A stretch of 64,000 bases of DNA from Effusibacillus dendaii (lineage in GTDB: Bacteria > Bacillota > Bacilli > Tumebacillales > Effusibacillaceae), in assembly GCF_015097055.1 (NCBI RefSeq), contig NZ_AP023366.1:1030501-1094500 (forward strand). Reading direction: 5' to 3'. Numbering within the stretch: position 1 is the first letter of the stretch; each line of letters opens with the position of its first letter. This document shows positions 19,679 to 56,393 of this stretch, piece after piece. The notes below the pieces were generated by a model. That model did no database searches and had not been told where the DNA came from. It saw only the letters and a list, made by a program, of their open reading frames with translations. The position numbers and the translations under genes are program-made.

Positions 19679-20199
19679 TTACCCATGCACCGAGTGATCC
19701 GCAAAATATTCCGCATACATCTGGCGCAGCACGTTTTTCTGGATTTTGCCGGTAGCGGTGGACGGAAACTGTTCCAAAATGACAACCGCTTTCGGCACCT
19801 CATAATTGCCGAGCGATTTTCTGCAGTGCGCAATCACCTCTTCCGCCGTAACGGTTTCGCCCGGTTTCGGAGTCACAAACGCGGTGACCGCTTCGCTCCA
19901 GAGCGGGTGCGGAAGTCCTACAACCGCACAGTTGGCAATTCTGGAATCGTTTAAAATCACGCCTTCCACCTTGACAGACGGTACGTTCTCGCCGCCGCTC
20001 TTGATCATGTCCTTTTTGCGGTCGACAAAAATCAACTGTCCGTCTGCGTCAAACATGCCAAGATCGCCGGTATGGTGCCATCCGAATTTTCTCGTTTTTC
20101 TCCGTCAACCGCCGCCATCTTTTGCGGATAGCGATGCGCGGGACGGCGAACGATGTCTCCGATGACGATCCGGCTGATGCGTTCCCATGTGGCTTCCAC
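19679..20199 (-). pseudogene. acyl-CoA synthetase with the middle deleted and a frameshift
   Basis: From a GTG at 20199, behind a good GGAGGGAGGAG site, the reading is VEATWERISRIVIGDIVRRP through PQKMAAVDGEKR, the start of an AMP-forming ligase. It is then joined, out of frame, to FGWHHTGDLGMFDADG and DMIKSGGENV, and continues to the normal end ATGKIQKNVLRQMYAEYFAD. Roughly 350 residues of the adenylation domain (P-loop and substrate pocket) are missing, close to 1 kb. The C-terminal subdomain alone cannot adenylate. The junction lies around 20085-20095. Confidence 0.88.
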
Positions 20200-24346: not shown

Positions 24347-24985
24347 CTATCTCCCTTTAAATTGCGGCGTGCGCTTCTCGATGAAGGCACTGGCTCCTTC
24401 TTGCAGGTCTTCACTTAAGAAACTGACCACCCGCAGCGTGTTCAAATAATCCATGCTTTTTAACAAATCCATATCTTCCGTCGTATAGAACGCATCCAAT
24501 CCGAGGCGGATGGCAAGCGGACTGTACTCGGCGATTGTACAGGCCAGCGACGCCGCTTCCTCCGCCAGTCTGTCAGCTGGGACAACGCGATGAACCAATC
24601 CCATTTCCTTCGCTTCCTGAGCGCTTAAAATATCGCCTGTCAGCATCATTTCAAGCGCTTTCCGATGCCCTACCGCCCGCCGAATCCAGGGCAAAATCAC
24701 AAACGGCATCAGCCCCACTTTAATCTCCGTCGTACCAAACTTGGCTGTTTCCGACGCGATCGCAATGTGGCACATAGCGACCAAACCGCAGCCGCCTCCC
24801 AACGCGTGGCCGTTGACTGCCGCAATCAGCGGCTTTTTGACAGTGGCCCCCAACCGGAACAGCTCCGTGTTCGCTTTTCCCTCCTGATGATGCTGCGGAG
24901 CTGACATTAAAGCGCTTTGTGAAAAGGCGGCCAGGTCGCCGCCCGCTGAAAAAGCGCTGCCCGCTCCCTTATAGAAAACTCCCAT
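24347..24985 (-). pseudogene. enoyl-CoA hydratase lacking its N-terminal about 50 residues
   Basis: The frame from ATG 24985 reads GAGSAFSAGGDLAAF, AAVNGHALGGGCGLVAMCH and the complete C-terminal half GLVHRVV through FIEKRTPQFKGR. A normal crotonase of about 260 residues has another 50 residues before the GAGSAFSAGGD strand, including the first CoA-binding strands. These are missing, and upstream the frame is stopped within a few codons. The break coincides with a short direct repeat (CCCTTATAGAAAA twice, 24966-25001). Some activity cannot be ruled out, but a 212-residue crotonase with no first strands should not fold normally. Confidence 0.75.
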
Positions 24986-25001: not shown

Positions 25002-25064
25002 CCTCGATTTCCCCATTCAAATCCCGCTCATTTTGCGGTACAATTGTAATAACATTCAGACAAC

Positions 25065-25082
25065 TGTTCGGAAAAGTATACA
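25065..25082 (+). promoter_or_regulatory. putative activator site, same motif as the sites at 42.9 kb
   Basis: An 18-bp element beginning TGTTCGG and ending TACA matches the pattern TGTYCGR-N8-ACA of the two sites at 42894 and 42924. It lies just upstream of the sigma-54 activator gene, where autoregulation or control of the divergent operon would be expected. Confidence 0.5.
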
Positions 25083-27249: not shown

Positions 27250-27251
27250 TA

Positions 27252-27770
27252 ACCTCGTCCCAAGTCCAGTTCCTTTTTCTTTCGTCGAATAATAAGGGGT
27301 TCCCAGCCGATTGATTTGCTCTGGGGTCATACCAATGCCCGTATCGCGAATTAACAATACAACCGTATTTCCTGTCCGGTTTGCCTTAAATTCCAGAATA
27401 CCTTCCTTCCGGCGAGCGAGAAAGGGGTTGTACACAAACCGGCAACACTGATGGTATGGCGAATTTTCCGCTCCTGTTCTTTTACAAGAACATTATTAAA
27501 TAAAAGTTCGATTTTATCGGTCAATGAGAGATAGATCATAAGCGTCACCAGTTTAATAAGAGTACATATAATCATTGCGTTAATAATTTTACAGCGCAAT
27601 TTTAAAGAGTGATATTTTTCCAAAAATAAAATAACCAATAAATATGTTGGAATGATGGAAATACTATACAGAAGATTATTTGGATTTCCTAACTATATAG
27701 AATTTCGACCAAACCATAGCAGATCCTCTCCCGTAATTCCGTAAGATATCACTCGATTCAGCAATCCCAA
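27252..27770 (-). pseudogene. sensor histidine kinase remnant
   Basis: Minus-strand pieces in different frames: a hydrophobic segment (LLVILFLEKYH... IICTLIKLVTLMIYLSL), a short piece DKIELLFNNVLVKEQERKIRHT, then a kinase ATPase core LEFKANRTGNTVVLLIRD, TGIGMTPEQINRLGTPYYST, KEKGTGLGT. The phosphoacceptor helix and the front of the ATPase domain are missing between them, and the end after GTGLGT runs into the neighbouring activator gene. Most of the N-terminal sensor is unrecognisable. A clear dead gene. Confidence 0.75.
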
Positions 27771-30441: not shown

Positions 30442-32058
30442 CTACATACGTATTAGATGATCTTTATACTGCTCCCGCAATGAACGTTTGAGAAATTTGC
30501 CAACCGAAGTTTTGGGGATTTCGTCAAGGAAAACGATATCATCCGGCACCCACCACTTGGCAAACTGACCCGCCAAATAGTCGAGCAGTTCCTGTTTTTC
30601 CACTTGATCCTTAAAATCCGGTTTTAGCGCAACAAATGCAACCGGCCGTTCATCCCATTTCGGGTGCGGCACGGCAATCACGGTCGCTTCAAACACTTTC
30701 GGATGAGCCATCAGGGCATTTTCCAGATCAACCGACGAGATCCATTCGCCGCCGCTTTTCACCAGGTCTTTTGTGCGGTCAACCAACTTCAGATATCCTT
30801 CTTCATCGATTGTTGCCACATCGCCCGAATGGTACCATCCGTCAATAAACGTTTCTTTGCTGCGCTCATCGTTATAATATTCGTCGGCCACCCAAGGACC
30901 GCGCAGCCAGACTTCGCCCATTTCCTGGCCATTCCAGTTGACGTCGCCGTTTTGACCGACCACCCGCATTTCCAAACCCGGTACCAACATGCCCTGCAGA
31001 GACCTGATATCGAGCAACCGGTCGACCGGCAGGTGTTGATGATTGCTGCGCAGGCGGGAGACGGAAGCAACAGGCGCCGTCTCTGTCATTCCATATGCGT
31101 GGATGAAGGGGATGCCGAATTTTTCCTCGTACGCTTTGATTAGGCCGCGCGGCGCTGCTGAACCGCCGCACAATACGGCGCGCAGGCTGGATACATCATA
31201 CGGCTGCTTTTCCAGCACCTGCAGGACACCTGTCCAGATCGTGGGCACGCCGGCTGCCGCCGTTATTTTTTCTGACTGGATAAGTTCAAGCAGAATTTGC
31301 GGTGTGGGGCCTGCTCCCGGCAGAACCAGCTTGGAACCGAACATGACAGCTGCAAACGGTATTCCCCATGCGTTAGCATGGAACATCGGGACAACAGGCA
31401 TCACTGTATCGTTTTCCGAGTAGGCGATTGTGTCTGCCAACCCCATGCACATCGTGTGCAGATAAATGCCCCGGTGAGAATAGACAACTCCTTTTGGATT
31501 GCCGGTAGTTGCCGATGTGTAGCACATGCCAGCCGCTTCATTCTCATCGATATCGCTGCGGAATTGGAAACCCGGATCGCCCGCCTCCAGCAGCTGTTCA
31601 TACGAATAGACCGGATGCAGCGCGGTTTCCGGCAGCTCCGGGTTGTCTGTCATGATGACAAACGCCTTTACCGTCGGAATCTGATCTTTTACTTTCTCGA
31701 TCAAGGGAATCAGATCTTCATCAATCATCAACACCTTATCTTCCGCATGATTGATGATGTAGGCGATATGTTCGGACGACAAGCGAATATTAATCGTGTG
31801 CAAAACCGATCCAATGCACGGAATGGCAAAATACGCTTCCAGATGACGGTGCTGGTTCCAGGCAAATGTAGCTACCCGATCACCGCGCTGCACCCCAAGC
31901 GTTTGCAACGCACTGGCAAGACGCCGGGCGCGTTTGCCAAAATCGGCGTACATGTATCGAAAAATACCGGAAGCCTTGCGGGTGACCACTTCTTTTTTCG
32001 GAAAGTATTTTTCCGCGCGTTCGATCAACAAGCGAAGTGTCAACTGCGTGTTCATCAT
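30442..32058 (-). CDS. long-chain fatty-acid--CoA ligase (AMP-forming)
   Basis: 538 residues, complete. The P-loop is CYTSATTGNPKGVVYSHRG, the A5 motif HAYGMTETAPVASVSRL, then WYHSGDVATIDEEGYLKLVDR and the catalytic lysine in KTSVGKFLKRSLREQY. This variant (TSATTGNPKG) is typical of the medium/long-chain FadD-like group found in Bacilli and Thermus. GGAGGGGG precedes the tandem ATGs at 32056-32058. Separated from the next upstream gene by 231 bases containing a large inverted repeat, so it may have its own promoter. Confidence 0.93.
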   Translation of the reverse strand: MMNTQLTLRLLIERAEKYFPKKEVVTRKASGIFRYMYADFGKRARRLASALQTLGVQRGDRVATFAWNQHRHLEAYFAIPCIGSVLHTINIRLSSEHIAYIINHAEDKVLMIDEDLIPLIEKVKDQIPTVKAFVIMTDNPELPETALHPVYSYEQLLEAGDPGFQFRSDIDENEAAGMCYTSATTGNPKGVVYSHRGIYLHTMCMGLADTIAYSENDTVMPVVPMFHANAWGIPFAAVMFGSKLVLPGAGPTPQILLELIQSEKITAAAGVPTIWTGVLQVLEKQPYDVSSLRAVLCGGSAAPRGLIKAYEEKFGIPFIHAYGMTETAPVASVSRLRSNHQHLPVDRLLDIRSLQGMLVPGLEMRVVGQNGDVNWNGQEMGEVWLRGPWVADEYYNDERSKETFIDGWYHSGDVATIDEEGYLKLVDRTKDLVKSGGEWISSVDLENALMAHPKVFEATVIAVPHPKWDERPVAFVALKPDFKDQVEKQELLDYLAGQFAKWWVPDDIVFLDEIPKTSVGKFLKRSLREQYKDHLIRM

Positions 32059-32289: not shown

Positions 32290-33447
32290 TCATACGACCC
32301 CCTGATTCCTTAACTCCCCGATTTCCTCCGCTGAAAGCTTCAGCACGGTGGCAAGCACTTCCTCTGTATCCCGCCCCAGAAAAGCGGCAGGTTCAGTGCG
32401 CAAATCAGGCTGGTAGCCGCCTGCCGATGTATGGGTAACCGCCAAAGAGATCCCATCAGCCGATTGTTGACGTTCGACAAGTCCTTTTTCTGCCGCCTGC
32501 CGATGTTTCATCATCTCACTTGTTGTCAGAATGGGCGCCATACAGCAATCCACTTCTTCCGCAAAACGGCTCCACTCAGCGAACGTTTTACTGCGAAACG
32601 TTTCTTTCACCTGCACAAAAATCGGATTCGTGTCCGCTGCCGCGCTAAAATGAGCTGCGATCCACTCTTCACGCCCGACGGCGCGGCAAAAGTTCTCCCA
32701 AAACTTTACTTCCAGCGCACCCAGACTGATAAACCGTCCTTCTTTTGTTTCATAGATGCAGTAGGAAACGATACTGCCGCCTAACTGCGGAACGCCTGTC
32801 TCTATCCCGGTCAGGTGCTGAATCATTACATGGTTGGCCATCAGTCCGATCATCGCATCTGTCATGGAAATGTCGAGAAAGGATCCTTCTCCTGTCAACT
32901 GCCGTTTGACAAGCGCCGCGCAAATCGCTTCCGATGCGGTTATGCCGCCAATCAGATCGGCGAACTGGATGCCCGGCTGGATAGGACGCCCTGCCTGATC
33001 CCTTAATTGGGACAGCACGCCGCTGTACGACATATAGTTGATATCATGACCGCCAAGATCTTTAAGCGGTCCAGTCTGTCCGTAACCGGTGAGCGAACAG
33101 TAGACAATGTCCGGTTTCGCCTGCCGCACTTTTTCATAACCGATTCCCATCACATCTGCCACACCGGGCCGGAATCCTTCGATCACGACATCTGCCCGGC
33201 TTGCCAAACGAAACGCCAATTCCTGACCGCTCGGGTGTTTCAGATTGATCGTAATACTTTTCTTGCTGCGGTTATTGGCGAGAAAAACAGGACCCGTCCC
33301 CGACTGCTGACCTACCAATCGAGCCGGATCGCCGCTTTTGGGAGGTTCCACCTTAATGATTTGCGCCCCCATTTCCGCAAGCCGCTCAGTGGCATAAGGT
33401 CCTGGCAAGTACCGCGAAAAATCGGCCACAACGATCCCCTTTAGCAT
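32290..33447 (-). CDS. CaiB/BaiF-type CoA transferase
   Basis: 385 residues, family III CoA transferase moving CoA between acids through an Asp-anhydride intermediate. VVADFSRYLPGPYATERLAE at the N-terminus, VEPPKSGDPARL, the nucleotide-contacting NNRSKKSITINLKHPSG and the catalytic Asp in KDLGGHDINYMSYSG. An ATG exists at 33465, but GGGAGTGA fits the ATG at 33447. Last gene of the R-specific beta-oxidation operon; it could activate the substrate by CoA exchange in place of a ligase. Confidence 0.92.
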   Translation of the reverse strand: MLKGIVVADFSRYLPGPYATERLAEMGAQIIKVEPPKSGDPARLVGQQSGTGPVFLANNRSKKSITINLKHPSGQELAFRLASRADVVIEGFRPGVADVMGIGYEKVRQAKPDIVYCSLTGYGQTGPLKDLGGHDINYMSYSGVLSQLRDQAGRPIQPGIQFADLIGGITASEAICAALVKRQLTGEGSFLDISMTDAMIGLMANHVMIQHLTGIETGVPQLGGSIVSYCIYETKEGRFISLGALEVKFWENFCRAVGREEWIAAHFSAAADTNPIFVQVKETFRSKTFAEWSRFAEEVDCCMAPILTTSEMMKHRQAAEKGLVERQQSADGISLAVTHTSAGGYQPDLRTEPAAFLGRDTEEVLATVLKLSAEEIGELRNQGVV

Positions 33448-33531
33448 CGGCGTCACTCCCTTCATTCAAAACACTTATGTATCAATCCTGCGGCAACCCG
33501 GTTCCAACGGGCTGCCGCAGCTTACTTGCTC

Positions 33532-34341
33532 TTACGTGTAGGATCCTCCGTTCATATGCACCACTTGGCCGTTCGTGTAGTTCGAAAGCGGGGACGCCAG
33601 AAACAAAATGACCGACGCTGCTTCTTCCGGCGTGCCTGCACGGCGCTGCGGAATGGCTTGTTCAAACATTTTACGAACTTTGCTGGGAATCCCGACCGCC
33701 ACGCCTTGAACGGTCTCGCCTTTTTCTTTTTCCTGCGTCAAACGGGTATCTACTAAACCGTATGCCACCGCATTCGTATTGATGTTAAACGGTCCCCACT
33801 CTTTGGCAACCGTTTTGGTCAGACCGATCAAGCCCGATTTTGCGGAAGAATAGTTGGCCTGCCCCACGTTGCCAAATGCGGCAACAGACGTTACATTGAC
33901 GATTTTCCGGTAGTTGGTGATGCCTTGCTCGATTTCCGTTTTTGCGGCGTCCCGCATATAAGGAGATGCTTCCCGGATCATGCGGAACGGTGTAATCAGA
34001 TGTACATCGAGCATTTTCTGGAACTGTTCATCTGTCATTTTGTGAATCAGAGCGTCCCACGTATAACCCGCATTGTTGACCAATATATCCAGTCGGCCGA
34101 ACGAGTCGATCGCGGCCGCAATCGCCCGTTTTGGAAAATCAGCCGCTGTTACATCCCCTACAACGCTGACGCCTTCACTTCCTTTTGCACGGATGGCAGC
34201 GATCGTTTCCTCTGCCGGACCCGCATCGAGATCATTTACGACGACTTTGGCGCCGTGTTCGGCAAACAATTCTGCAGTTGCCCGACCGACACCTCGCCCG
34301 GAGCCGGTAATAATGGCTACTTTACCTTCCAACATTTTCAT
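33532..34341 (-). CDS. SDR dehydrogenase, probable (R)-3-hydroxyacyl-CoA dehydrogenase (MFE-2-like)
   Basis: 269 residues, NAD(P) Rossmann fold: AIITGSGRGVGRATAELFAE, acidic VVNDLDAG after strand 2 (suggests NAD preference), NNAG, and the catalytic Ser-Tyr-Lys set with YSSAKSGLIGL. The segment FGNVGQANYSSAK resembles the dehydrogenase part of peroxisomal MFE-2, which oxidises (R)-3-hydroxyacyl-CoA. Two MaoC-type hydratase halves lie immediately upstream, consistent with an R-specific beta-oxidation spiral. A FabG-like reductase role is the alternative. Confidence 0.88.
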   Translation of the reverse strand: MKMLEGKVAIITGSGRGVGRATAELFAEHGAKVVVNDLDAGPAEETIAAIRAKGSEGVSVVGDVTAADFPKRAIAAAIDSFGRLDILVNNAGYTWDALIHKMTDEQFQKMLDVHLITPFRMIREASPYMRDAAKTEIEQGITNYRKIVNVTSVAAFGNVGQANYSSAKSGLIGLTKTVAKEWGPFNINTNAVAYGLVDTRLTQEKEKGETVQGVAVGIPSKVRKMFEQAIPQRRAGTPEEAASVILFLASPLSNYTNGQVVHMNGGSYT

Positions 34342-34403: not shown

Positions 34404-34811
34404 CTACAGGGCCACTTCAAACTCACCTTTCAGTTTGGTTTCACCCGCCTGATTTTTCGCCTCGACTGAACAACGAAGACGGTTTTCCGAACCCGCCGTG
34501 ATCTGCTCCAACACTTTCCCTGTGACGATAATCTGTTCACCCGGTCTTGTCATGGCGGTGAAACGAACACCGAATCGGCGCAGATTTTTGCGCGGAATCC
34601 AGGTGGTAATCGCCCGGCCGGCCAATCCCATAATCAGCATGCCGTGTGCAATAACGCCGCCCAGACCCGCTTTTTCCGCGATCGGAACCACCGTGTGAAT
34701 CGGGTTGAAATCGCCCGATGCACCCGCATATTTGACAAGTTGGATGTGTGTGATTTCCGGCGACTCAACAACAGGAAATTCCTGCCCGACTGTTACTTGC
34801 GATTGTTGCAT
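34404..34811 (-). CDS. MaoC-like hydratase subunit (catalytic half)
   Basis: 135 residues, a single hot-dog domain with the catalytic Asp-x4-His in ASGDFNPIHTVVPIAEKAG and the following VIAHGMLIMGLAG loop. Its partner upstream (34830-35285) has the MaoC N-terminal type sequence. Such two-gene pairs (HadA/HadB, ChsH1/H2 in actinobacteria) form heteromeric (R)-enoyl hydratases. GGGGGCA precedes the ATG. The 18-base gap to the partner supports co-expression. Confidence 0.9.
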   Translation of the reverse strand: MQQSQVTVGQEFPVVESPEITHIQLVKYAGASGDFNPIHTVVPIAEKAGLGGVIAHGMLIMGLAGRAITTWIPRKNLRRFGVRFTAMTRPGEQIIVTGKVLEQITAGSENRLRCSVEAKNQAGETKLKGEFEVAL

Positions 34812-34829: not shown

Positions 34830-35285
34830 CTAATGTCTTTCGATAATCACCGAACGGGCGACCAACACTTTCTCTCCCGCCTGGTTGGTGTATTCCGTTT
34901 CCAGCGTGAACAGGTTCATGCCGCCGCTGCCGCTCGCTTTGGAAACCGCATTTTTGACCGTTGTCCGGCCCGTAATCTGATCGCCCGGATAGATATCGCC
35001 AAGGTATTCATATTCCTGCTCTCCGTGCAGCACCTTCAGCGGATTGATATCAAGCGCCTTGGTCATCTCAAAAAAGTCGGTACCGCCCCACATTTCAATC
35101 ACCGTCGCATAGGTGGGCGGGATCGGCGAATCGGCAAATCCCTCCTGTTCCGCGCGCAAACGGTCATAATAAATCGGATTCCCGTCGCCGATCGCCATGG
35201 CGAACTCGCGGATTTTACCGCGTTCGATGGCAAACGTAAACGGTTCAAACTGTTTGCCGATGATGCCGCTGAAGTCTCTGCTCAT
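34830..35285 (-). CDS. MaoC N-terminal-type hydratase subunit (FAS1-like dehydratase domain)
   Basis: 151 residues: PFTFAIERGKIREFAMAIGD, GNPIYYDRLRAEQEG and IPPTYATVIEMWGG, then GEQEYEYLGDIYPGDQITGR. This is the non-catalytic or regulatory hot-dog half seen as the N-terminal domain of double hot-dog hydratases; the Asp-His pair is not complete. It probably pairs with the product of 34404-34811. ATG at 35285 with AAGGAGG upstream, 12 bases after the dehydrogenase gene. Confidence 0.88.
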   Translation of the reverse strand: MSRDFSGIIGKQFEPFTFAIERGKIREFAMAIGDGNPIYYDRLRAEQEGFADSPIPPTYATVIEMWGGTDFFEMTKALDINPLKVLHGEQEYEYLGDIYPGDQITGRTTVKNAVSKASGSGGMNLFTLETEYTNQAGEKVLVARSVIIERH

Positions 35286-35297
35286 GCATGTTCCTCC

Positions 35298-36443
35298 TTA
35301 CAGCCCCATGTTTTTGGCTATGATCGTTTTCATGATTTCATTCGTTCCGGCATAAATCGCCGAAACGGGGATGTCCCGGAAACGGCGTGCAATCGGATAT
35401 TCTTCCATATATCCATAGCCGCCGTGCAGCTGTACGCATTGGCTGGCCACCCGTTTGGCCATATCAGTAATCCACCATTTTGCCATCGAGACACGTGTCA
35501 CGATTTCTTTTCCTGCCATATGATCCGCGATTAACTGATCGAGGAAGGCGCGACCGACTTCTGCTTCGGTCGCCATTTCCACAATTTTGAACTGTGTGTT
35601 CTGGAATTTGCTGATCGGTTGACCAAACGCTTCCCGCGTTTTCACATACTCGACCGTCATTTTAATCATTTCTTCCGCCGCCACCTGCGCCGCGATCGCC
35701 ACAATCAGCCGTTCCTGCTGCAGCTTATCCATCAGATATTTAAAACCTTGGCCTTCTTGTCCCAACAGGTTCGAAACAGGCACACGGCAATCTTCAAAAA
35801 TCAATTCTGCCGTGTCCTGGCTGTGCAGCCCGATTTTGTTCAGTTTGCGTCCTCGGGAGAAACCGGGTGTATCGCGTTCCACCCAGATCAAACTAATTCC
35901 TTTGTGTTTGGGAACCGCATTCGGATCTGTTTTAACCACGACAAGCACCAGATCGGATTGAATGCCGTTTGTAATAAATGTTTTCTGGCCGTTTAACACA
36001 TAATGATCGCCGTCTCGAGCCGCCGTCGTGCGGACGTTTGCCAGATCGGAACCTGTACCCGGTTCAGTCATTGCAATGGCGGTGATGATGTCGCCGCGGG
36101 TGCAGCCGGGCAGCCAGCGCTGTTTCTGTTCTTCCGTTCCGTATGAAGTGAGATACGGAACCACAATATCGTTGTGCAGGCCGATTCCCACCATACCGGA
36201 GCCGACCCTCTCCAATTCCTCGTTAATAACCACCGAATAGCCCCAGTCCGCTCCGGAACCGCCGTATTTTTCATCGACATCGGGACAGAGGTAGCCTTGA
36301 TCCCCCATCTTTTTCCAGAAGGAACGGGGAATCATCCGCTCTTCCTCCCATTGGTCAAAATAGGGAACCGCTTCCTTCTCCAAAAACTTGCGCAGCGTGT
36401 TTCTAAACATACGATGTTCTTCTTTCAAATATAAATGACTCAT
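35298..36443 (-). CDS. acyl-CoA dehydrogenase, copy 1 of a tandem pair
   Basis: 381 residues. AIAMTEPGTGSDLANVRTTA and LHGGYGYMEEYPIARRFRDI are FAD/substrate motifs. The end reads IYAGTNEIMKTIIAKNMGL, with Ala instead of the YEGT Glu; the Glu in LQQERLIVAIA is the likely base, as in long-chain and isovaleryl-type enzymes. It is about three-quarters identical to the dehydrogenase at 38083-39228 of the same operon, with the same length and termini, so the two arose by duplication. GGAGGAG precedes the ATG. Confidence 0.93.
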   Translation of the reverse strand: MSHLYLKEEHRMFRNTLRKFLEKEAVPYFDQWEEERMIPRSFWKKMGDQGYLCPDVDEKYGGSGADWGYSVVINEELERVGSGMVGIGLHNDIVVPYLTSYGTEEQKQRWLPGCTRGDIITAIAMTEPGTGSDLANVRTTAARDGDHYVLNGQKTFITNGIQSDLVLVVVKTDPNAVPKHKGISLIWVERDTPGFSRGRKLNKIGLHSQDTAELIFEDCRVPVSNLLGQEGQGFKYLMDKLQQERLIVAIAAQVAAEEMIKMTVEYVKTREAFGQPISKFQNTQFKIVEMATEAEVGRAFLDQLIADHMAGKEIVTRVSMAKWWITDMAKRVASQCVQLHGGYGYMEEYPIARRFRDIPVSAIYAGTNEIMKTIIAKNMGL

Positions 36444-36502
36444 AGTTCTCCTCCAGTCTTCACATGATGTTTATGGATTTTCGGCAATCTGTCAGAGAGG
36501 CG

Positions 36503-38065
36503 TCAATTCACCTGTCGTCCGTTCGTGCTCCAGTATTGGTCGCGGAGTGTCCGCTTGAGAATTTTGCCGGCCCCTGACTTCGGCAATGCATCAACAAAAT
36601 CCACCGATTTCGGAACCTTGTAATTGGCCAGCGACAACCGGCAGTGCGCCATCAATTCTGCCTCACTCGCCGATTGACCCGGTTTCAGGACGACGACCGC
36701 TTTAATCGCTTCGCCCCATTTTGCGTCCGGAATTCCAATGACAGCCGCTTCTAAAACAGCCGGGTGGGTGTAAATGACGTTCTCTACTTCCACCGAGTAG
36801 ACGTTCTCCCCGCCGGTAATGATCATGTCTTTTTTGCGGTCGACAATGTAAAGAAAACCGTCTTCATCTATCGTTGCCATGTCACCCGTATAATACCAAC
36901 CATCCTTCAATACGGCAGCCGTTTCCTCCGGCCTGTTCCAGTATCCTTTCATGATGTTGGGAGCTCTGGCAACAATTTCGCCAACTGTGCCGGGTGGAAC
37001 AGGATTTCCGTCAGGATCGACCACCTTGATCCGCACCTGAAAAACGGGCAATCCGCAGGACGACAAGCGTCTTGCATCCCGTTCATCACCATCCAGCACG
37101 TGATGTTCCGCAGACAGGGAGGTAAGCAACGGAGACGCTTCTGTCATACCGTATCCCTGACCGAATTCGCAGTTTAGAACCTGCATCGCTTTGCGCAACA
37201 CTTCCGGCGGAATCGGCGACGCCCCGTACGCGAGCCGTTTCAGCGAGGACAAATCGTATTGATCCAAATCGGGATCGTTGACCAGCATGTTGATCATCGT
37301 CGGTACCAATAACGTATGTGTGACTTTGTCTCGCTCAATAGTTTCCAGCACCTTCTGCGTGTCGTACATGCGAACATGAGAATGGGTGCCGCCAAGCATC
37401 GTCAAAGCAAATGTGCTGCCGCCGTCCGCCAGATGGAACATCGGTGCTGCATGCAGATAGACGGTATCTTTATTGTATTCGGAGTTCATCCCGACCTGGA
37501 ATGCGTTGACAGTCAGATTTTTGTGTGTCAGCATCACGCCTTTCGGCGCTCCGGTGGTGCCGCCTGTATAATAAATCCCGGCCACGTCCTGCTCGTCGAT
37601 CTCGACAGACTGCCAGACTGACAGCCGATCGATCAGATCTTCATAGGATAAGGCATCCACCCCTTCTGTCATTTGCGGTGCCGCCAGTACATAGTGGTTA
37701 ACCGTTTGCATCTCTTGCCGCACCGCCTGAATAACGGGTACAAATTCACGATGAAAGAACAATACTTTGGCGCCCGAATCGTTGATCATAAACGATACTT
37801 CCGGCGGCGCCAACCGCACATTTAACGGAACCACGATCGCTCCGCAAACCAAACTGGCGTACAGAATCTCAAGATAATGAAAGCTGTTCAAGAGCAGCAT
37901 GCCGACCCGGTCGCCTTTTTGAATTCCCATTTCCTGCAGGGCGCCCGCCAATCGCGTCACACGATGCCCGAATTCGCCGTATGTGAACTGCACATCACCG
38001 TCAAGTATGCCGATTTTATTCGGTTTGTTGCGTACCGTATTCCAAAAGCCCGTGGTCAAGATCAT
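36503..38065 (-). CDS. AMP-forming acyl-CoA synthetase
   Basis: 520 residues, complete: P-loop IYYTGGTTGAPKGVMLTHKN, A5 motif QGYGMTEASPLLTSL, WYYTGDMATIDEDGFLYIVDR and the C-terminal lysine in KSGAGKILKRTLRDQYW. An open frame extends upstream to 38263, overlapping the neighbouring dehydrogenase, but GGGGG lies seven bases before the ATG at 38065, where the family begins (LTTGFWNTVRNKPNKIGI). It is the only intact ligase of this operon; the one at its head is broken. Confidence 0.93.
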   Translation of the reverse strand: MILTTGFWNTVRNKPNKIGILDGDVQFTYGEFGHRVTRLAGALQEMGIQKGDRVGMLLLNSFHYLEILYASLVCGAIVVPLNVRLAPPEVSFMINDSGAKVLFFHREFVPVIQAVRQEMQTVNHYVLAAPQMTEGVDALSYEDLIDRLSVWQSVEIDEQDVAGIYYTGGTTGAPKGVMLTHKNLTVNAFQVGMNSEYNKDTVYLHAAPMFHLADGGSTFALTMLGGTHSHVRMYDTQKVLETIERDKVTHTLLVPTMINMLVNDPDLDQYDLSSLKRLAYGASPIPPEVLRKAMQVLNCEFGQGYGMTEASPLLTSLSAEHHVLDGDERDARRLSSCGLPVFQVRIKVVDPDGNPVPPGTVGEIVARAPNIMKGYWNRPEETAAVLKDGWYYTGDMATIDEDGFLYIVDRKKDMIITGGENVYSVEVENVIYTHPAVLEAAVIGIPDAKWGEAIKAVVVLKPGQSASEAELMAHCRLSLANYKVPKSVDFVDALPKSGAGKILKRTLRDQYWSTNGRQVN

Positions 38066-38082
38066 ACTTTTTCCCCCTACGG

Positions 38083-39228
38083 TTACAACCCCATATTTTT
38101 GGCGATGATCGTTTTCATGATTTCGTTGCTGCCGGCAAAAATGGCGCTGACCGGCGTGTCGCGAAATCTTCTGGCGATTTTGTACTCTTCCATGTACCCG
38201 TAACCGCCATGCAGTTGCAAACACTGGGAAGCGACTCGCTTGGCAAGCTCTGTGGTCCACCATTTGGCCATTGACACTTTGGTGACGATGTCTTTGCCTG
38301 CCATATGTTCTTCAATCAGTTGATCGACAAACACGCGCCCAATCTCGATTTCTGTAGCCATTTCGACGATTTTAAACTGTGTGTTTTGGAACTTGCGGAT
38401 CGGCTGTCCGAACGCTTCCCGCGTTTTGACATAATCGACCGTCATGTTTAACATTTCCTCCACGCCAATCATCGCGCCAATGGCCACCACCAGCCGCTCC
38501 TGCTGCAGTTTTTGCATCAGGTATAGGAATCCTTGCCCTTCACGGCCGATCAGATTGTCGGTCGGCACCCGCACTTCTTCAAAAATCAGTTCTGCCGTAT
38601 CCTGGCTGTGCAGCCCGATTTTGTTCAATTTGCGGCCCCTCGTAAAACCGGGCATGCCGCGTTCCACCACTAACAAGCTGACCCCTTTATAGGCCGGAAC
38701 TGCTTTCGGATCTGTTTTGCAGGCGACAATCACCAGATCGGACTGAATCCCGTTTGTAATGAACGTTTTCTGGCCGTTCAGTACATAATGGTCGCCGTCC
38801 CGGATGGCGGTGGTACTGATGCGGGCCAGATCAGAACCGGTTCCCGGCTCTGTCATGGCAATCGCGGTGATGATTTCGCCTGTTGTACATTTCGGCAGCC
38901 AGCGCTGTTTCTGTTGATCCGTTCCGTATGCTTCGATGTAGGGAACGACAATATCATTGTGCAGACCGAATCCTCCCAAGCCGCCGCCGATTCGTGACAT
39001 TTCCTCCGAGATGACCACCGAATACAGCCAATCTGCGGATGCACCGCCATACGCTTCATCAAGTGTCGGGCAGAGGTATCCCTGTTGGCCCATTTTGATC
39101 CAAAGAGAACGGGGAATCAGCCGATCTTCCTCCCACTGGTCATAATACGGCGCCACTTCTTTGTCCAGAAACTGACGGAGCGTTTTGCGAAACAGTTGGT
39201 GTTCTTCCTTAAAAATCGTACGGTTCAT
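38083..39228 (-). CDS. acyl-CoA dehydrogenase, copy 2 of a tandem pair
   Basis: 381 residues. AIAMTEPGTGSDLARISTTA, LHGGYGYMEEYKIARRFRDT and the end IFAGSNEIMKTIIAKNMGL. Active-site logic as in copy 1: Ala at the YEGT position and Glu in LQQERLVVAIG. The opening MNRTIFKEEHQLFRKTLRQF is nearly parallel to copy 1. The two copies flank the CoA ligase. Divergence between them suggests that both are kept for different acyl chains. The start is ATG at 39228. Confidence 0.93.
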   Translation of the reverse strand: MNRTIFKEEHQLFRKTLRQFLDKEVAPYYDQWEEDRLIPRSLWIKMGQQGYLCPTLDEAYGGASADWLYSVVISEEMSRIGGGLGGFGLHNDIVVPYIEAYGTDQQKQRWLPKCTTGEIITAIAMTEPGTGSDLARISTTAIRDGDHYVLNGQKTFITNGIQSDLVIVACKTDPKAVPAYKGVSLLVVERGMPGFTRGRKLNKIGLHSQDTAELIFEEVRVPTDNLIGREGQGFLYLMQKLQQERLVVAIGAMIGVEEMLNMTVDYVKTREAFGQPIRKFQNTQFKIVEMATEIEIGRVFVDQLIEEHMAGKDIVTKVSMAKWWTTELAKRVASQCLQLHGGYGYMEEYKIARRFRDTPVSAIFAGSNEIMKTIIAKNMGL

Positions 39229-39323: not shown

Positions 39324-40508
39324 CTACCCGATTTCCTTGCCGACGATCGAAATGAACGATACGCACTGCCAGGGAAATCCGCCGAGATTGTGCGTCAGGC
39401 CGATTTTCGGATTGTCGAGCTGCCGTTTGCCGGCTTTGCCTTGAAATTGCAGCCACATTTCATACAGCATCCGAAGCCCGCTGGCACCTATCGGATGACC
39501 GAACGATTTTAATCCGCCGTCCGGGTTGACAGGCAGTTCGCCCTCCAGATCAAAAACACCGTTTAACACATCTCTCCAGGCCTGCCCCCGTTCGCTGAAA
39601 CCAAGATCTTCATAAATCACCAGTTCGGTCGGGGTAAAGCAGTCGTGTACTTCCGCCATGCTGATCTGTTTGCGCGGCTCCGTAATACCGGCCTGTTGAT
39701 AAGCATCTTTGGCGGCCCACACATTTTCCCGGATCGAAGTAAAATCAAAATCCTGCCGCAGTCTGCCGTCCCCAGGCCCGGCGGCAATCGTCAACGCTTT
39801 CACATACATCGGGTCTTTCCGGAATTTGTGAGCATCCTCCGCGCGGACGATAATCGCTGCCGCTGCACCATCCGCCACGCCCGAACAGTCCATAATCCCA
39901 AGCGGAGCAGCGACCGTCGGCGATTTCAGGATCGATTCGATCGGCACCTCGCTGCGGAACTGCGCTTTCGGATTGAGTGAACCATTCCGGTGGTTTTTCC
40001 AGGCGATACGGGCCAACACCTCTTTGCCCTGCTCCGAATCCAAACCGTACTTGTTAAAATAGGCCGGTGCCAAAAACGAGAAGGCAGCAGGCGCCGTAAT
40101 GTCAGGTGCTGTCCCGTCCGAATCGGGGCCCGTGACCGCCAATCCGCTGTAGCCGGAATCTTTTAGCTTTTCGACGCCGATGGCCAACACCATATCGTAA
40201 GCACCCGCCGCCACCGCATAGCACGCGTTGCGAAACGCTTCGGAACCGGTCGCACACATGTTTTCCACCCGGGTTACCGGCAAGTATTGTGTTTTCAAGG
40301 GACCTGACAATGTCAATCCGGCAAGCCCGGATGTGAATGTGCCCAACCAGCATGCTTCGATGTCGGTTGGTTCGACGCCCGCATCGGCAAACGCTTCATA
40401 TGCGGCCTCTACCAGCAAATCTTCGACGCTTTTGTCCCAATGTTCAGCAAACCGGGTGCAGCCCATGCCGATGACAGCTACCTGATCCTTGATTCCTTTG
40501 CGTCTCAT
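39324..40508 (-). CDS. SCP-x-type thiolase (acetyl-CoA C-acyltransferase)
   Basis: 394 residues. Catalytic Cys in RVENMCATGSEAFRNACYAV, HDCFTPTELVIYEDLG, and GGLKSFGHPIGASGLRM with the conserved His. The lineage resembles SCP-2/Ltp2-like thiolases, which cleave branched or sterol-side-chain 3-ketoacyl-CoA and usually need a DUF35/OB-fold partner; the gene immediately upstream ends in just such a domain. Overlaps that gene by four bases. AGAGGGGG precedes the ATG. Confidence 0.91.
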   Translation of the reverse strand: MRRKGIKDQVAVIGMGCTRFAEHWDKSVEDLLVEAAYEAFADAGVEPTDIEACWLGTFTSGLAGLTLSGPLKTQYLPVTRVENMCATGSEAFRNACYAVAAGAYDMVLAIGVEKLKDSGYSGLAVTGPDSDGTAPDITAPAAFSFLAPAYFNKYGLDSEQGKEVLARIAWKNHRNGSLNPKAQFRSEVPIESILKSPTVAAPLGIMDCSGVADGAAAAIIVRAEDAHKFRKDPMYVKALTIAAGPGDGRLRQDFDFTSIRENVWAAKDAYQQAGITEPRKQISMAEVHDCFTPTELVIYEDLGFSERGQAWRDVLNGVFDLEGELPVNPDGGLKSFGHPIGASGLRMLYEMWLQFQGKAGKRQLDNPKIGLTHNLGGFPWQCVSFISIVGKEIG

Positions 40509-42013
40509 GACCGTACCCCCTCTGTTGCTTTCGTTTTGTTCGACTCATCTGCAGATTGCGGATTTTGCGCTGCCTGGTTGGCACCTTGCCCGCCTGCAAC
40601 CGCGCGCTTTGGTTTCGCCTTCCAGAAGTAATTGTGAATACTGCCGGCCGCATACAAACGACGGAACGTCATATCCAATTCCATGCCGATTTTCATTTCG
40701 GCAGGATCTACATCTGTCACTTCGCAAATCACCCGGCCGCCGCCGTCAAAATCAACTACCGCAACAACGCTCGGTGGCGCCGGAGTGGCCGCCAGGTGAT
40801 CGATTGTAAACGTAGCCACCTTTGCCGATTTGCCGTAAAAACGGTATTCGACCATCTGGTCGACCGCCTGACACTGCACACACACCCGCTGTTTCGGAAA
40901 CTGCGGCGTCCCGCAGGCCAAACATTTCGATCCGTAAAACCCCAGATTCTGACGATAATTGCGCTGCATGGCCGGTACCGATGGACGCGGTGTTTCCGGT
41001 CGTCTGGCCGGTTCGGTCTGCAGAATTCCTTTCCATTTCAGATAGTTGTTATATTCCAGATGGTTGTCTTTCGGCTCCAGATGACCGCTGATCGCGCGTC
41101 GGGGAGACAGGTTGCGGATCGCGTCGGTCACTTCAAACAGAATGGCATCGCATCCTTCGCCGAAATTCACAAACAGGATTCGTTCACCCGGTTGCGCCTG
41201 TTCCATTGCGGCAGCCAACATCATCGGCGCATGAGCGGTACCGGCCATTCCCACCCAATCTACCAACTCATCCTGAATCTGCTGCGGCTGAAAACCGAGT
41301 CCGTTCGCCACTGCCAAAGCAGCGCGCGGATTCGGGCCAGTGATCACCAGTTTGGCAAAATCGGCTGGCTGCAGCCCGCTTGCCACCAGAATCGTTTGCA
41401 CCGTCTGTGCGACAGTTTCGGCATACACTTTTTGCACGAAGCGGTCTTCCCAGCTTTTTTCGAACCGATCGTCCTGACTGCGCCAGTTTCCGATTTGTTC
41501 CTGTGTGCGGCTGCTGATCGACTTGACTTCCGCTATCACTTCCGGGCCTTGCCCGATCAAAAATGCGGCTCCCCCGTCCCCGAACAACTGCTCATTTTGG
41601 CCCTGCGGAGCGCCTAACCGGCAATCTGCCGCTGCCACCAGTACGCGGGTTGCCCCTGCTTTTACCGTATCAAAAGCGGCAATCATCGCCGAAGAAGCGG
41701 CGCGCAAGGATCCGCCAAAATCGGATGCACGGACTTCCGGCTGCAGATCAAGCGCAGACGCAATCGTCGCGGAAGACTGTTTTTCCAGATAAGGCGCTGA
41801 CGTGGTGGCAAAATACAGCGCGTCCACCGAATCGGTTTCAAATCCCTGCAGGCTGTCAAGCGCGGCGCTGACAGCCAGCGATACACTGTCTTCGTCAAAG
41901 TTGGCTACCGCTTTCTCCCCTTTGCCGGGGCGATCGCCGAACGCCTGGCCGATTTTTTTTCGTTCCAGACGGTTATAGGGTATATAGGCGCCATAGGAAA
42001 CCAATCCCACCAT
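40505..42013 (-). CDS. HMG-CoA-synthase-like / thiolase-fold protein fused to a DUF35 OB-fold domain
   Basis: 502 residues. Residues 1 to about 320 have the thiolase/HMG-CoA synthase fold (VSYGAYIPYNRLERKKIGQA, QNEQLFGDGGAAFLIGQG, VKLVITGPNP-like segment). Residues about 345-470 are a rubredoxin-like zinc ribbon (KCLACGTPQFPKQRVCVQC) plus OB fold, the acyl-CoA-binding DUF35 module. The strand where synthases carry their nucleophilic Cys reads ASDFGGSLRAASSAM, without a Cys, so condensing activity is doubtful; it may be a scaffold for the adjacent thiolase. The tail is low-complexity. Confidence 0.82.
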   Translation of the reverse strand: MVGLVSYGAYIPYNRLERKKIGQAFGDRPGKGEKAVANFDEDSVSLAVSAALDSLQGFETDSVDALYFATTSAPYLEKQSSATIASALDLQPEVRASDFGGSLRAASSAMIAAFDTVKAGATRVLVAAADCRLGAPQGQNEQLFGDGGAAFLIGQGPEVIAEVKSISSRTQEQIGNWRSQDDRFEKSWEDRFVQKVYAETVAQTVQTILVASGLQPADFAKLVITGPNPRAALAVANGLGFQPQQIQDELVDWVGMAGTAHAPMMLAAAMEQAQPGERILFVNFGEGCDAILFEVTDAIRNLSPRRAISGHLEPKDNHLEYNNYLKWKGILQTEPARRPETPRPSVPAMQRNYRQNLGFYGSKCLACGTPQFPKQRVCVQCQAVDQMVEYRFYGKSAKVATFTIDHLAATPAPPSVVAVVDFDGGGRVICEVTDVDPAEMKIGMELDMTFRRLYAAGSIHNYFWKAKPKRAVAGGQGANQAAQNPQSADESNKTKATEGVRS

Positions 42014-42053: not shown

Positions 42054-42765
42054 CTACTTCACCTGCGGCTGTTCTATCAATTCCTCGCGCAGTTTGTATT
42101 TCAACACTTTCCCCGATGCGTTGCGGGGAATTTGATCGACAAGGAAAAGTTTGCGAGGGATTTTGTAGCCTGCCAGAGACTGACGGCAAAACGCTTGCAA
42201 TTCCTCCAGATCGATCGTCTGGCCCGGTTTTGGCACAATGACGGCCGCCACCATTTCACCCCAAACTTCGTGCGGCACACCGATTACCGCTGCTTCCAGC
42301 ACGGACGGATACCCGTACAACACCTGCTCGACTTCCACCGAATACACATTTTCACCGCTGGCCCTCGATTGCCGGTTGACCGACAACGATCACATGGGCG
42401 TCGGCGGGTACCGTTGATCGCGCCTCTTCAATCAAATTTGCAAATTCCGCATCACAGACCACCATCACGGAATCGGAATGATCGAGAATGTAATTGACTT
42501 CTGTGGCGGTTAGCCGAAAATTGACCGGAACCAGCACCGCCCCCGCTTTGGCGGCCGCAAAGAAAGCGATTGCAAAATAATCCGAGTTTTTCATCATCAG
42601 GGACACTTTTTGACCTTTTTGCAGCCCGAGCGCTATCAACCCGTGCGACAATCGGTTCACCAACCGGTTAAACTCTCCGTACGTGTAATCGCGCCCTTCA
42701 CAGGTCAGCGCCCATTTATCCGGGTGCCGTCTTGCATTTCTCGCCAAACAACTGCCGATGTCCAT
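42054..42765 (-). pseudogene. acyl-CoA synthetase with the middle deleted and a frameshift
   Basis: Starts properly at ATG 42765 with GGGGTG ahead (GSCLARNARRHPDKWALTCE), runs about 137 residues to VIVVGQPAIEG, then jumps at about 42357-42365 into another frame at ASGENVYSVEVEQ and continues to the normal end RNASGKVLKYKLREEL. About 270-290 residues are lost, including the P-loop and most of the adenylation site. It is the first gene behind a sigma-54 promoter, so the remaining operon may still be transcribed. Confidence 0.88.
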
Positions 42766-42804
42766 GTTTTCACCCCATGTGTGTTCCATTGTGTTCCCTG
42801 AGAT

Positions 42805-42821
42805 TGCAAATTTTGTGCCAA
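42805..42821 (-). promoter_or_regulatory. sigma-54 (-24/-12) promoter of the R-specific beta-oxidation operon
   Basis: The minus strand reads TTGGCACAAAATTTGCA: GG and GC are exactly ten bases apart and both core elements (TGGCAC and TTGCA) match the RpoN consensus. Transcription would begin near 42794, about 30 bases before the ATG at 42765. Confidence 0.85.
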
Positions 42822-42893
42822 TGGTTTCATTGTTGATTTTGTACGCGGTCCGCAGGGAACAATGTTCAAATTCGTCCCGTTTCTTACACCAAA

Positions 42894-42941
42894 TGTTCGA
42901 TTATCCGGACACTCAACAACAAGTGTCCGATTTTTTGTACA
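42894..42941. promoter_or_regulatory. two 18-bp activator sites, 30 bp apart, upstream of the sigma-54 promoter
   Basis: TGTTCGATTATCCGGACA (42894-42911) and TGTCCGATTTTTTGTACA (42924-42941) share TGTYCGATT and a terminal ACA. They are spaced 30 bp (about three turns), 73-136 bp upstream of the promoter, as expected for an enhancer-binding protein. The end of the first and the start of the second also form CGGACACT/AGTGTCCG. Confidence 0.65.
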
Positions 42942-43041
42942 GTTGTTTTTTTCAAACAGCAAGGATTTTTACAGACCACAAGGAATTTTGCTTATCATTT
43001 CTAAGTAATGTTTACAAACCAACATATGGGGGGAGTTTATG

Positions 43042-54304: not shown

Positions 54305-54321
54305 AGCAAGAACTGTGCCAA
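54305..54321 (-). promoter_or_regulatory. sigma-54 (-24/-12) promoter of the hydratase/lyase/importer operon
   Basis: The minus strand reads TTGGCACAGTTCTTGCT, with GG and GC ten bases apart and both TGGCAC and TTGCT intact. The predicted start of transcription is near 54294, 50 bases before the ATG at 54244. The gene of a PrpR-type sigma-54 activator is immediately upstream. Confidence 0.9.
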
Positions 54322-54375: not shown

Positions 54376-54422
54376 GTTTCAAAAGTGAAACATTCGTTTA
54401 AAAGCCTAAACGTTATGTTTCA
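54376..54422. promoter_or_regulatory. cluster of TGAAAC/GTTTCA dyads, probable activator-binding region
   Basis: GTTTCA-AAAG-TGAAAC at 54376-54391 is a perfect dyad. Its right half also begins a wider one: TGAAACAT (54386-54393), CGTTTA (54395), TAAACG (54107 in the hundreds count, i.e. 54407-54412) and ATGTTTCA (54415-54422). They lie 55-115 bp upstream of the -24/-12 promoter and overlap the stop codon of the activator gene. Confidence 0.7.
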
Positions 54423-56354
54423 AAAGTTCAATTTCCGCCAAAGAGTTGCACGGCTGATACCGAGATAACGGGCAGCTTCCGTTTTATTTCCGTTACATTT
54501 GGCCAAGACCTGATGAATCATTTCCCGTTCGTTCTGTTTTTTGAATTCTGTAAGGTTTGGATATTCGGTTTTATCGCTTTTGACGAGGGACACACCTTGT
54601 TGGGAATTGTCTGATGATGAAGTGAAAGTCAATTGACCTATAGACAGATCGTAGAAGATGATATCTGACAAGGACTGCTCTTCGGAGAACGATTCTCCCT
54701 GTTTGACCACAACCAAACGTTGAACCGTATTTTCCAGTTCCCTCACGTTCCCAGGCCAACCGTATTGTTGGACTCTGGGTAAAAGTTCGGACACAATCTC
54801 ATCCGCCTGATCCGCAACGCCGTATTTTGCACACAGACTTTTAATCAAATGCGGAAGATCATCAGGGCGTTCACGCAACGGTGGAACTTTAAGATGTAAA
54901 ACATTCAGCCGGTAATACAGGTCCTGTCTGAATTTGCCCTGCAAAACCATTGTATTTAAATCACGATTTGTCGCAGCTAGAATCCGAACATCGACCGGCA
55001 TTAAATTGTGACCGCCGACCCGCCGGACCTGTTTTTCTTGTAATACACGAAGCAATCTTGACTGCAGTTCTAAGGAGAGTTCCCCTATTTCATCAAGATA
55101 TAATGTTCCTTCGTGTGCCATTTCAAACAGGCCTGGTTTTCCTCCTTTTTTTGCGCCTGTAAAGGCGCCATCTTCATATCCGAACAGTTCGCTTTCCAGT
55201 AAATGCTCTGTAAACACGGCGCAATTTATGGCAACAAACGGTTTCCCTTTCCTCCCGCTGGCATTATGAATACTTTGCGCAAACAATTCCTTTCCTGTCC
55301 CTGATTCCCCTGTGATTAACACCGTGGAATCGTTTTGCGCATATAGTTTGGCCAGATGAATCGTTTTTCGCATTTCTTGCGATTGACCAATAATGTCGCA
55401 AAACTGATATCGTGCAAAATGACCACTGTCGTAGAGATTTTGCCTGATTGTACGCTCCGCTTTTTGGACAGTGGCAAAATCTTGGAACACAATCATACAG
55501 CCTGACGGGTTTTTATTCACAATGGTTGGAATATAATCGACCAAATACTGCTTACGGTGAATCGTTTCGATTTGTTGAGTATACGGTTCACCATGCGCAA
55601 GAGATTCGGCCAGTTTTGAAATTGGCCAAAACGATTTCATTTTTCTGCCGGTCAATTCAGACCGCTTCATATTGAGCATTTCTTCCGCTTTCGAGTTGAC
55701 CAGTACACAAACCCCTTGCTTGTCTGTGGTAATAATCCCCATTCCCGAATGTTCGACAATCAGTCTAAATTGCTCGCGCTTTTCAATTTCCTCCCTTCGG
55801 CTGTGCGCCAATTGCAAGGCGTTATCCAACGCCTGAGAGATTGAATCTTTTGAGTATATGTAAATGGCCTTACCTCCCATTTCACTGACAAGATCACACA
55901 TCAAGCTGGTACCGATAAAAGTTCGGTACCCGAATCGAAAGTACCGATCAATTTTTTCCCGGGCATCTTGTCTATCCATATAGCAATCGGACACAATTTT
56001 CATATCGACAAGTTCCGAATAGCAGCTTAAATTCTCAAACGGAGTTCCGTAACGCATGACCACAACCTGACGATCGATCCGCTTCGCTTCTGACATTGCG
56101 TTTAACAAATCAAAGCTCGTCACCTTAATCAAAACCACAGGAATGTTTAGATCCCCGAGAAAAGCGGCATGGCCCCAAGCAGTTACAATTACATCGATAT
56201 TTTTTTCTTCCCGAATGGTCGCCAGAATCGGGCACAAATTACCAAACGTGGCTTCAAAGTACAAAACCGAATCATTCAACTTTTTTTCTTCAACCAACTC
56301 CCGAAAAATCGGCCCAGTCAACGGATGGCTAATAATCGCCAATTTTACATTCAT
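54420..56354 (-). CDS. PrpR-type sigma-54-dependent activator (PrpR_N-PAS-AAA+-HTH)
   Basis: 644 residues. An N-terminal PrpR_N sensor (about 1-190; binds small acids in PrpR, e.g. methylcitrate), a PAS domain (about 195-300), AAA+ core with Walker A GESGTGKE near 350, GAFTGA near 396, Walker B LYLDEIGELS, and an HTH_8 C-terminus (NKTEAARYLGISRATLWRKL). GGGAGGGG precedes the ATG at 56354. It is transcribed towards the hydratase/lyase operon, whose promoter follows 100 bases after its stop. The ligand is probably an acid of that pathway. Confidence 0.93.
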   Translation of the reverse strand: MNVKLAIISHPLTGPIFRELVEEKKLNDSVLYFEATFGNLCPILATIREEKNIDVIVTAWGHAAFLGDLNIPVVLIKVTSFDLLNAMSEAKRIDRQVVVMRYGTPFENLSCYSELVDMKIVSDCYMDRQDAREKIDRYFRFGYRTFIGTSLMCDLVSEMGGKAIYIYSKDSISQALDNALQLAHSRREEIEKREQFRLIVEHSGMGIITTDKQGVCVLVNSKAEEMLNMKRSELTGRKMKSFWPISKLAESLAHGEPYTQQIETIHRKQYLVDYIPTIVNKNPSGCMIVFQDFATVQKAERTIRQNLYDSGHFARYQFCDIIGQSQEMRKTIHLAKLYAQNDSTVLITGESGTGKELFAQSIHNASGRKGKPFVAINCAVFTEHLLESELFGYEDGAFTGAKKGGKPGLFEMAHEGTLYLDEIGELSLELQSRLLRVLQEKQVRRVGGHNLMPVDVRILAATNRDLNTMVLQGKFRQDLYYRLNVLHLKVPPLRERPDDLPHLIKSLCAKYGVADQADEIVSELLPRVQQYGWPGNVRELENTVQRLVVVKQGESFSEEQSLSDIIFYDLSIGQLTFTSSSDNSQQGVSLVKSDKTEYPNLTEFKKQNEREMIHQVLAKCNGNKTEAARYLGISRATLWRKLNF

Positions 56355-56393
56355 CACGTCCCCTCCCATTTGACCAAATAGCGCAAAATTTAT

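Follow-up and report, generated by a model that had tools for sequence, protein, structure and literature searches.

A sigma-54 leader with paired activator sites before an acyl-CoA degradation operon of Effusibacillus dendaii, and a candidate substitute for its missing activator

Introduction

Sigma-54 control of acyl-CoA genes is already known or predicted, as the accessible parts of two publications make clear (PMC6615313, PMC12316311). One of them, a matrix-based survey from 2025, predicts that beta-oxidation genes are enriched in the sigma-54 regulons of Bacilli and Clostridia, and it resembles our case in placing predicted sigma-54 promoters before genes for acyl-CoA dehydrogenase, thiolase, enoyl-CoA hydratase and acyl-CoA synthetase; it remains, however, at the COG level, and its accessible text names no activator, binding site or operon of the present kind, and neither Brevibacillus nor Alicyclobacillus (PMC12316311). 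The other publication includes crt-hbd-thl-maoC-bcd-etf operons in the sigma-54 regulons of Clostridiales. Its CrbR, XcgR, YctR and LeuR regulons hold hadAIBC-acdB-etfBA among their operons, and CrbR and XcgR are assigned TGT-N10-12-ACA inverted repeats, both of which recall the locus described here. These regulons serve butyrate synthesis or leucine catabolism, however, and in the accessible text none of the four regulators is described as a CBS2-PAS2 activator beside an HMGS/DUF35-thiolase-HadA/MaoC-CoA-transferase operon (PMC6615313). Given what these two sources say, as far as their accessible parts go, the statement of an earlier note on this DNA that sigma-54 control of such an operon is unusual in Bacilli was too strong.

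Two further systems are close to ours. The BkdR-SigL-controlled bkd operon of B. thuringiensis likewise has a PAS-type EBP and a -24/-12 element before an acyl-CoA-forming operon in Bacilli, but it serves branched-chain amino-acid degradation and its activator is without CBS domains (PMC4428206). The text on the experimentally defined SigL regulon of that organism is without fatty-acid genes, and relative to this regulon a sigma-54 acyl-CoA operon remains new (PMC4428206). PrdR (NF041552), with a reported UAS of the TGT/ACA type, is the best NCBIfam match of the activator encoded at 25102 in our DNA; that protein, however, falls below the family cut-off (523.6 bits against 795) and proline reductase genes are absent nearby, and an identity as PrdR was rejected. 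In the limited set of open-licence literature searched, no earlier report was found of the activator groups, their sites or the operon that we describe below.

The DNA analysed is a stretch of 64,000 nucleotides, here called the window. Strain skT53 was reported as Effusibacillus sp. (PMC8297450) and afterwards described as E. dendaii (PMC8502169). The genome searched consists of one contig of 3,454,394 bases. Orthologous operons were gathered by means of the HMGS/DUF35 protein, and activator loci by means of the 25102 protein.

Results and Discussion

A -24/-12 element precedes the operon

The leader carries the following promoter, about 40 bp upstream of the ATG at 42765:

42805 to 42821, minus strand: -24/-12 sigma-54 promoter TTGGCACAAAATTTGCA

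Its GG-N10-GC core is set in a TTGGCAC-N5-TTGCA context, and under a -24/-12 matrix it ranks at the top of the 64-kb window. Exact copies of TGGCAC-N5-TTGC number 14 in the 3.45-Mb genome, while the reversed pattern, used as a control, occurs once; among these 14, scanned over 260 bp upstream, only the element at 42805 has both of the 18-bp sites described below. The sigma-54 gene itself is encoded (PF04552, 213 bits, G000:C1:1835707), and a candidate EBP is predicted at 25102, the Walker A and GAFTGA motifs of which are both intact. The earlier claim of an RpoN promoter is thus borne out by the exact element, its genome-wide excess and the presence of sigL. No good sigma-70 element was found in a scan of the leader between the activator sites and fadD1.

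The window holds a second exact -24/-12 promoter, TTGGCACAGTTCTTGCT (54305-54321, minus strand), flanked on one side by a PrpR_N-type activator gene and on the other by an aconitase/isopropylmalate-dehydratase-like pair with a methylisocitrate-lyase-like gene; the interval 54420-56369 (minus strand) was noted together with it.

The operon is broken at its 5' end

The genes behind the promoter are, in order of transcription:

42054 to 42789, minus strand: fadD1 remnant, acyl-CoA ligase without residues 135-406, its ends in different frames; intact orthologues come first in the operon in Brevibacillus sp. SYP-B805 (L142) and in G035 (L086)
40505 to 42013, minus strand: HMG-CoA-synthase-like protein fused to a ChsH2/DUF35 OB domain
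39324 to 40508, minus strand: thiolase, PRK06157-type, 85-90% identity in the nearest orthologous operons
38083 to 39228, minus strand: acyl-CoA dehydrogenase acadA, 76% identical to acadB
36503 to 38065, minus strand: acyl-CoA ligase fadD2, start set at an internal Met (the listed ORF starts at 38263)
35298 to 36443, minus strand: acyl-CoA dehydrogenase acadB
34830 to 35285, minus strand: HadA-like hydratase subunit
34404 to 34811, minus strand: MaoC-type hydratase
33532 to 34341, minus strand: SDR / FabG-like dehydrogenase
32290 to 33465, minus strand: family III CoA transferase
30442 to 32058, minus strand: acyl-CoA ligase fadD3, probable distal member, located after the CoA transferase in Brevibacillus

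The first gene is dead. It retains residues 1-134 (74% identity) and 407-504 (81%) of the Brevibacillus protein, but about 270 central residues of the ligase are gone and the frame is broken. The gene set fadD1-HMGS/DUF35-thiolase-ACAD-HadA-MaoC-SDR-CoAT3 is otherwise present, and the full beta-oxidation set claimed earlier is therefore there as to its genes, with fadD2 and fadD3 remaining, though not as to its 5' end, where fadD1 lies in two frames. As judged from the predicted proteins, the ligases, dehydrogenases, HadA/MaoC pair, SDR and thiolase with its HMGS/DUF35 partner are consistent with R-specific beta-oxidation. The thiolase/DUF35 pair and the family III CoA transferase would suit branched or aryl-substituted acids no less than ordinary fatty acids.

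Two peculiarities of the cluster may be added. The two dehydrogenase genes flank a ligase gene (35298-39228), and since orthologous operons have a single copy there, a local duplication is likely. A C-terminal fragment of another acyl-CoA ligase lies at 19679-20056 (minus strand), which, with fadD1 and a truncated hydratase described below, brings the broken acyl-CoA genes of the cluster to three.

Two sister groups of activators accompany two kinds of acyl-CoA operon

In an IQ-TREE phylogeny, the CBS2-PAS2-AAA-Fis activators split into two sister groups, A (support 100/99) and B (92/93). Group B adjoins fadD1-HMGS-thiolase-acad-hadA-maoC-SDR operons or subsets of them, and its loci are found in Brevibacillus sp. 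SYP-B805 (L142), G035 (L086), G228, G103, G192, G318 and G102 as well as in Desulfotomaculum copahuensis, Desulfotruncus arcticus and alcoholivorax, Desulfofundulus australicus and two MAGs. Group A, which includes the 25102 protein of the window, mostly adjoins AtuA (PF07287)-acyl-CoA dehydrogenase-carboxylase operons. The main difference between the HTH domains lies in the recognition helix, which reads SRSTLYQK in 25102 and SRSxLYEK in group B.

The operon of the window belongs with group B by its genes, but no group-B activator gene adjoins it. In this genome the L086 activator finds its best match in 25102 (41%, full length), no other protein of the genome matches the CBS region of that activator, and no remnant of a group-B gene was found between 42801 and 43600.

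The group-B leader is conserved in other genera and absent from two congeners

Group-B operons have leaders with one or two TGTCC-N7/8-GGACA-like dyads upstream of the -24/-12 element, and such leaders were seen in Brevibacillus, other Bacilli and Desulfotomaculum-type Clostridia. Where paired, the dyads have a centre spacing of 20-24.5 or 32-34 bp, with one exception at 44 bp. In a motif-free count, TGTCCG/CGGACA was the most enriched 6-mer, being present in 11 of 16 leaders against 1.06 expected (z = 9.7). Loci were chosen by protein relationship and not by promoter, and a -24/-12 element together with a group-B site 30-200 bp upstream occurred at 13 of 14 group-B-type activator loci, at none of 10 operon copies without a group-B activator, at 1 of 14 group-A loci and at 2 of 66 loci of other phyla. 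The term orthologous operon holds strictly for nine of the group-B loci, as L087, L293, L294, L295 and L296 are without an HMGS gene in the stretch read; L087 (G024) was placed in group B by the tree. The window is an exception to the association, having dyads of the TGTCCG/CGGACA type at 30-200 bp upstream of its -24/-12 element and no group-B gene. Its parts follow the same order as in L086, which has two sites 32.5 bp apart, the -24/-12 element, an intact fadD1, ligase, HMGS, thiolase and ACAD.

For group A, an unbiased k-mer count gave no strong 6-mer, and group-A site scores are thus weak evidence. Recognisable sites were absent from the Kyrpidia-sized group-A loci (G033, G052) and from G081, all of which have promoters.

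Conservation of promoter and sites in orthologous leaders thus held in other genera and failed inside the genus. In the congeners G001 and G002 the operon is present without fadD1, without a -24/-12 candidate and without sites of the 18-bp type, and the leaders hold TGAATGAATACTCATTTA / TGAATGATCATTCA and ACGACCGTTYGGTT instead (L089 11749-12010; L090 7216-7460). We take these palindromes to be similar to the operators to which FadR-type and other TetR-family repressors bind. If so, there has been an apparent regulatory replacement within the genus, with TetR/FadR-like palindromes in place of the sigma-54 leader in two congeners.

The paired sites of the window are of the group-B type

Two 18-bp sites lie upstream of the promoter:

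42894 to 42911, no strand assigned: proximal activator site TGTCCGGATAATCGAACA (minus-strand reading), 16.5 bits under a group-B matrix made without the window
42924 to 42941, no strand assigned: distal activator site TGTACAAAAAATCGGACA (minus-strand reading), 14.4 bits under both the group-B and the group-A matrix

Both were found where the earlier note had put them, with centres exactly 30 bp apart. Of the claimed distance of 73-136 bp, the lower figure stands, while the upper one had been measured from 42805; counted from the first base of the -24 box, the sites lie 73-120 bp upstream. The claimed helical phasing is approximate, 30 bp being 2.86 turns, and the spacing is nearest to the three-turn class of group-B leaders.

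The half-site matrix was built from group-B sites of other genomes, chosen by eye with the window left out, and it ranks the proximal site first and the distal site second in the 64 kb. As their summed score was matched by none of 1000 dinucleotide shuffles of the leader, two sites of such quality are not due to chance. A matrix from Bacilli alone also puts them on top, with a margin of about 4 bits, as does the pooled matrix, whereas one from the Desulfotomaculum-type (Clostridia) sites alone does not rank them first. Under the group-A matrix the proximal site fits poorly (10.1 bits). A genome-wide scan in which the site pattern was allowed one mismatch was uninformative (609 matches against 396 in the reversed control). 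Taken together, it is nearly certain that both the sigma-54 promoter at 42805 and its activator sites are genuine.

A terminator in place of activator sites is very improbable, even if the motif, read on the plus strand as CGGACACT-N8-AGTGTCCG followed by ATTTTTTG, scans as one: the two sites combine into a hairpin that has a T run (42906-42929, plus strand). In several Bacilli a T run accompanies the group-B site, which directly follows the activator gene and may there double as the terminator of that gene. No plus-strand gene ends at the motif of the window, however, and the motif tracks the activator gene. It was on the Desulfotomaculum-type leaders that this explanation was rejected: there the sites are flanked by divergent genes, the dyads are imperfect and have no T run, and their position upstream of the -24/-12 element is retained.

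The region around 25102 points to a rearrangement

The activator gene lies 17 kb from the promoter, in the following surroundings:

24347 to 24985, minus strand: enoyl-CoA hydratase without its first ~50 codons
25045 to 25062, no strand assigned: group-A-type activator site upstream of the activator gene
25065 to 25082, no strand assigned: second group-A-type site upstream of the activator gene
25102 to 27249, plus strand: EBP-A, CBS2-PAS2-AAA-Fis HTH activator with intact GAFTGA, the proposed substitute

The truncated hydratase gene is the start of the AtuA-type operon, and no -24/-12 element was found before it. This operon seems to have lost both its sigma-54 promoter and the 5' part of the first gene, with the sites at 25045-25082 still in place. 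On the other side, the gene flanking the sigma-54 promoter, at 43039, encodes a BtrH_N/DUF4872 protein, a relative of which in G052 sits between a group-A activator and its sigma-54 promoter. We infer a rearrangement by which parts of the two clusters came together no more than about 100 bp from the distal site and the group-B gene was removed, probably at the time when the operon became joined to the AtuA-type cluster. On the strand opposite the 25102 gene, an ORF of 105 codons (27118-27435, minus strand) overlaps that gene at its 3' end; the ORF resembles the ATPase end of a histidine kinase and looks like a gene fragment.

Which activator acts at the promoter

The earlier note had named the 25102 protein as the activator of the operon. 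The tree speaks against this as first put, as the protein is a group-A member and not the orthologue of the activator that accompanies such an operon elsewhere. Because group B is absent from the genome, 25102 can at best be a substitute, and its role is one that we infer. In its favour, it is the best full-length match of a group-B protein in the genome and the only match covering both CBS and PAS regions. The distal site scores equally under both matrices, and the group-A leader of G002 has a site, TGTTCGATTTCCGTACA, whose first nine bases are shared by the proximal site of the window (plus-strand reading TGTTCGATTATCCGGACA) and which reaches 14.5 with the group-B matrix. The difference in the recognition helix agrees with a mixed site preference without proving it. 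On the other hand, group-A activators elsewhere adjoin AtuA-type operons, and their sites are mostly without a TGTCC half. We put the odds that 25102 activates the 42805 promoter at about even.

Another activator could act here, which we regard as improbable. The promoter beside the gene of an AcoR-like protein near 3.02 Mb carries TGTCCGTTGTCCGGACA, which scores 19.8 bits under the group-B matrix, but a transposase-like ORF pair separates the gene from this promoter, and the N-terminal domains of the protein and the downstream hydrolase/sulfite-reductase-like operon are unrelated. (At this locus, L132 / L299, G000:C1, ~3.022-3.032 Mb, the -24/-12 promoter with the TGTCCGTTGTCCGGACA site drives the hydrolase and sulfite-reductase-like genes.) A PAS-only activator at 1.2528 Mb is the second-best group-B relative in the genome, with 46% over the central and C-terminal part, but its recognition helix is different (SKSGFYQK). 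Somewhat less improbable, though still unlikely, is that without a group-B activator nothing fires the promoter, its elements being relics and the operon read from another promoter or silent. The single-contig genome is indeed without group B, the congeners are without the sigma-54 leader and fadD1 is dead; with its first gene broken, the leader could be on its way out. A functionless element should erode, however, and here the two boxes and the two sites stay close to consensus, the genes downstream have open frames, and no good sigma-70 element was found ahead of fadD1.

We thus prefer the reading that the acyl-CoA degradation operon has inherited its sigma-54 switch, with 25102 as the likeliest activator, and give this a probability of roughly 0.55. 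The anatomy of the locus suggests standard sigma-54 activation. SigL-RNA polymerase would stay silent at the -24/-12 element. A CBS2-PAS2-AAA-Fis activator would occupy the two TGT-N12-ACA sites, which lie ~80 and ~110 bp upstream, loop over to the promoter and, once its CBS and PAS domains have registered an internal signal, use ATP hydrolysis to melt it. In relatives with the same leader this activator would mostly be the group-B protein encoded beside the operon; here the group-A sister protein 25102, the sole CBS2-PAS2 activator found in the genome, would be the likeliest substitute. A full takeover, in which group B was lost, 25102 runs the group-B operon after the loss of its own AtuA-type promoter, and the congeners control the operon without sigma-54, is a more tentative proposal that we hold to be somewhat doubtful.

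What the findings mean lies at two levels. Two sister groups of CBS-PAS activators are defined with a testable motif, and they pair with two acyl-CoA operons across Bacilli, group B also in Clostridia, which gives a concrete activator and site to the COG-level prediction of sigma-54-controlled lipid catabolism in Bacillota. The locus in Effusibacillus offers a natural experiment, in which a sigma-54 operon, unable to fire without an activator, has outlived the loss of its own; possible outcomes are capture by a paralogue, silence, or another type of promoter, as the congeners seem to show.
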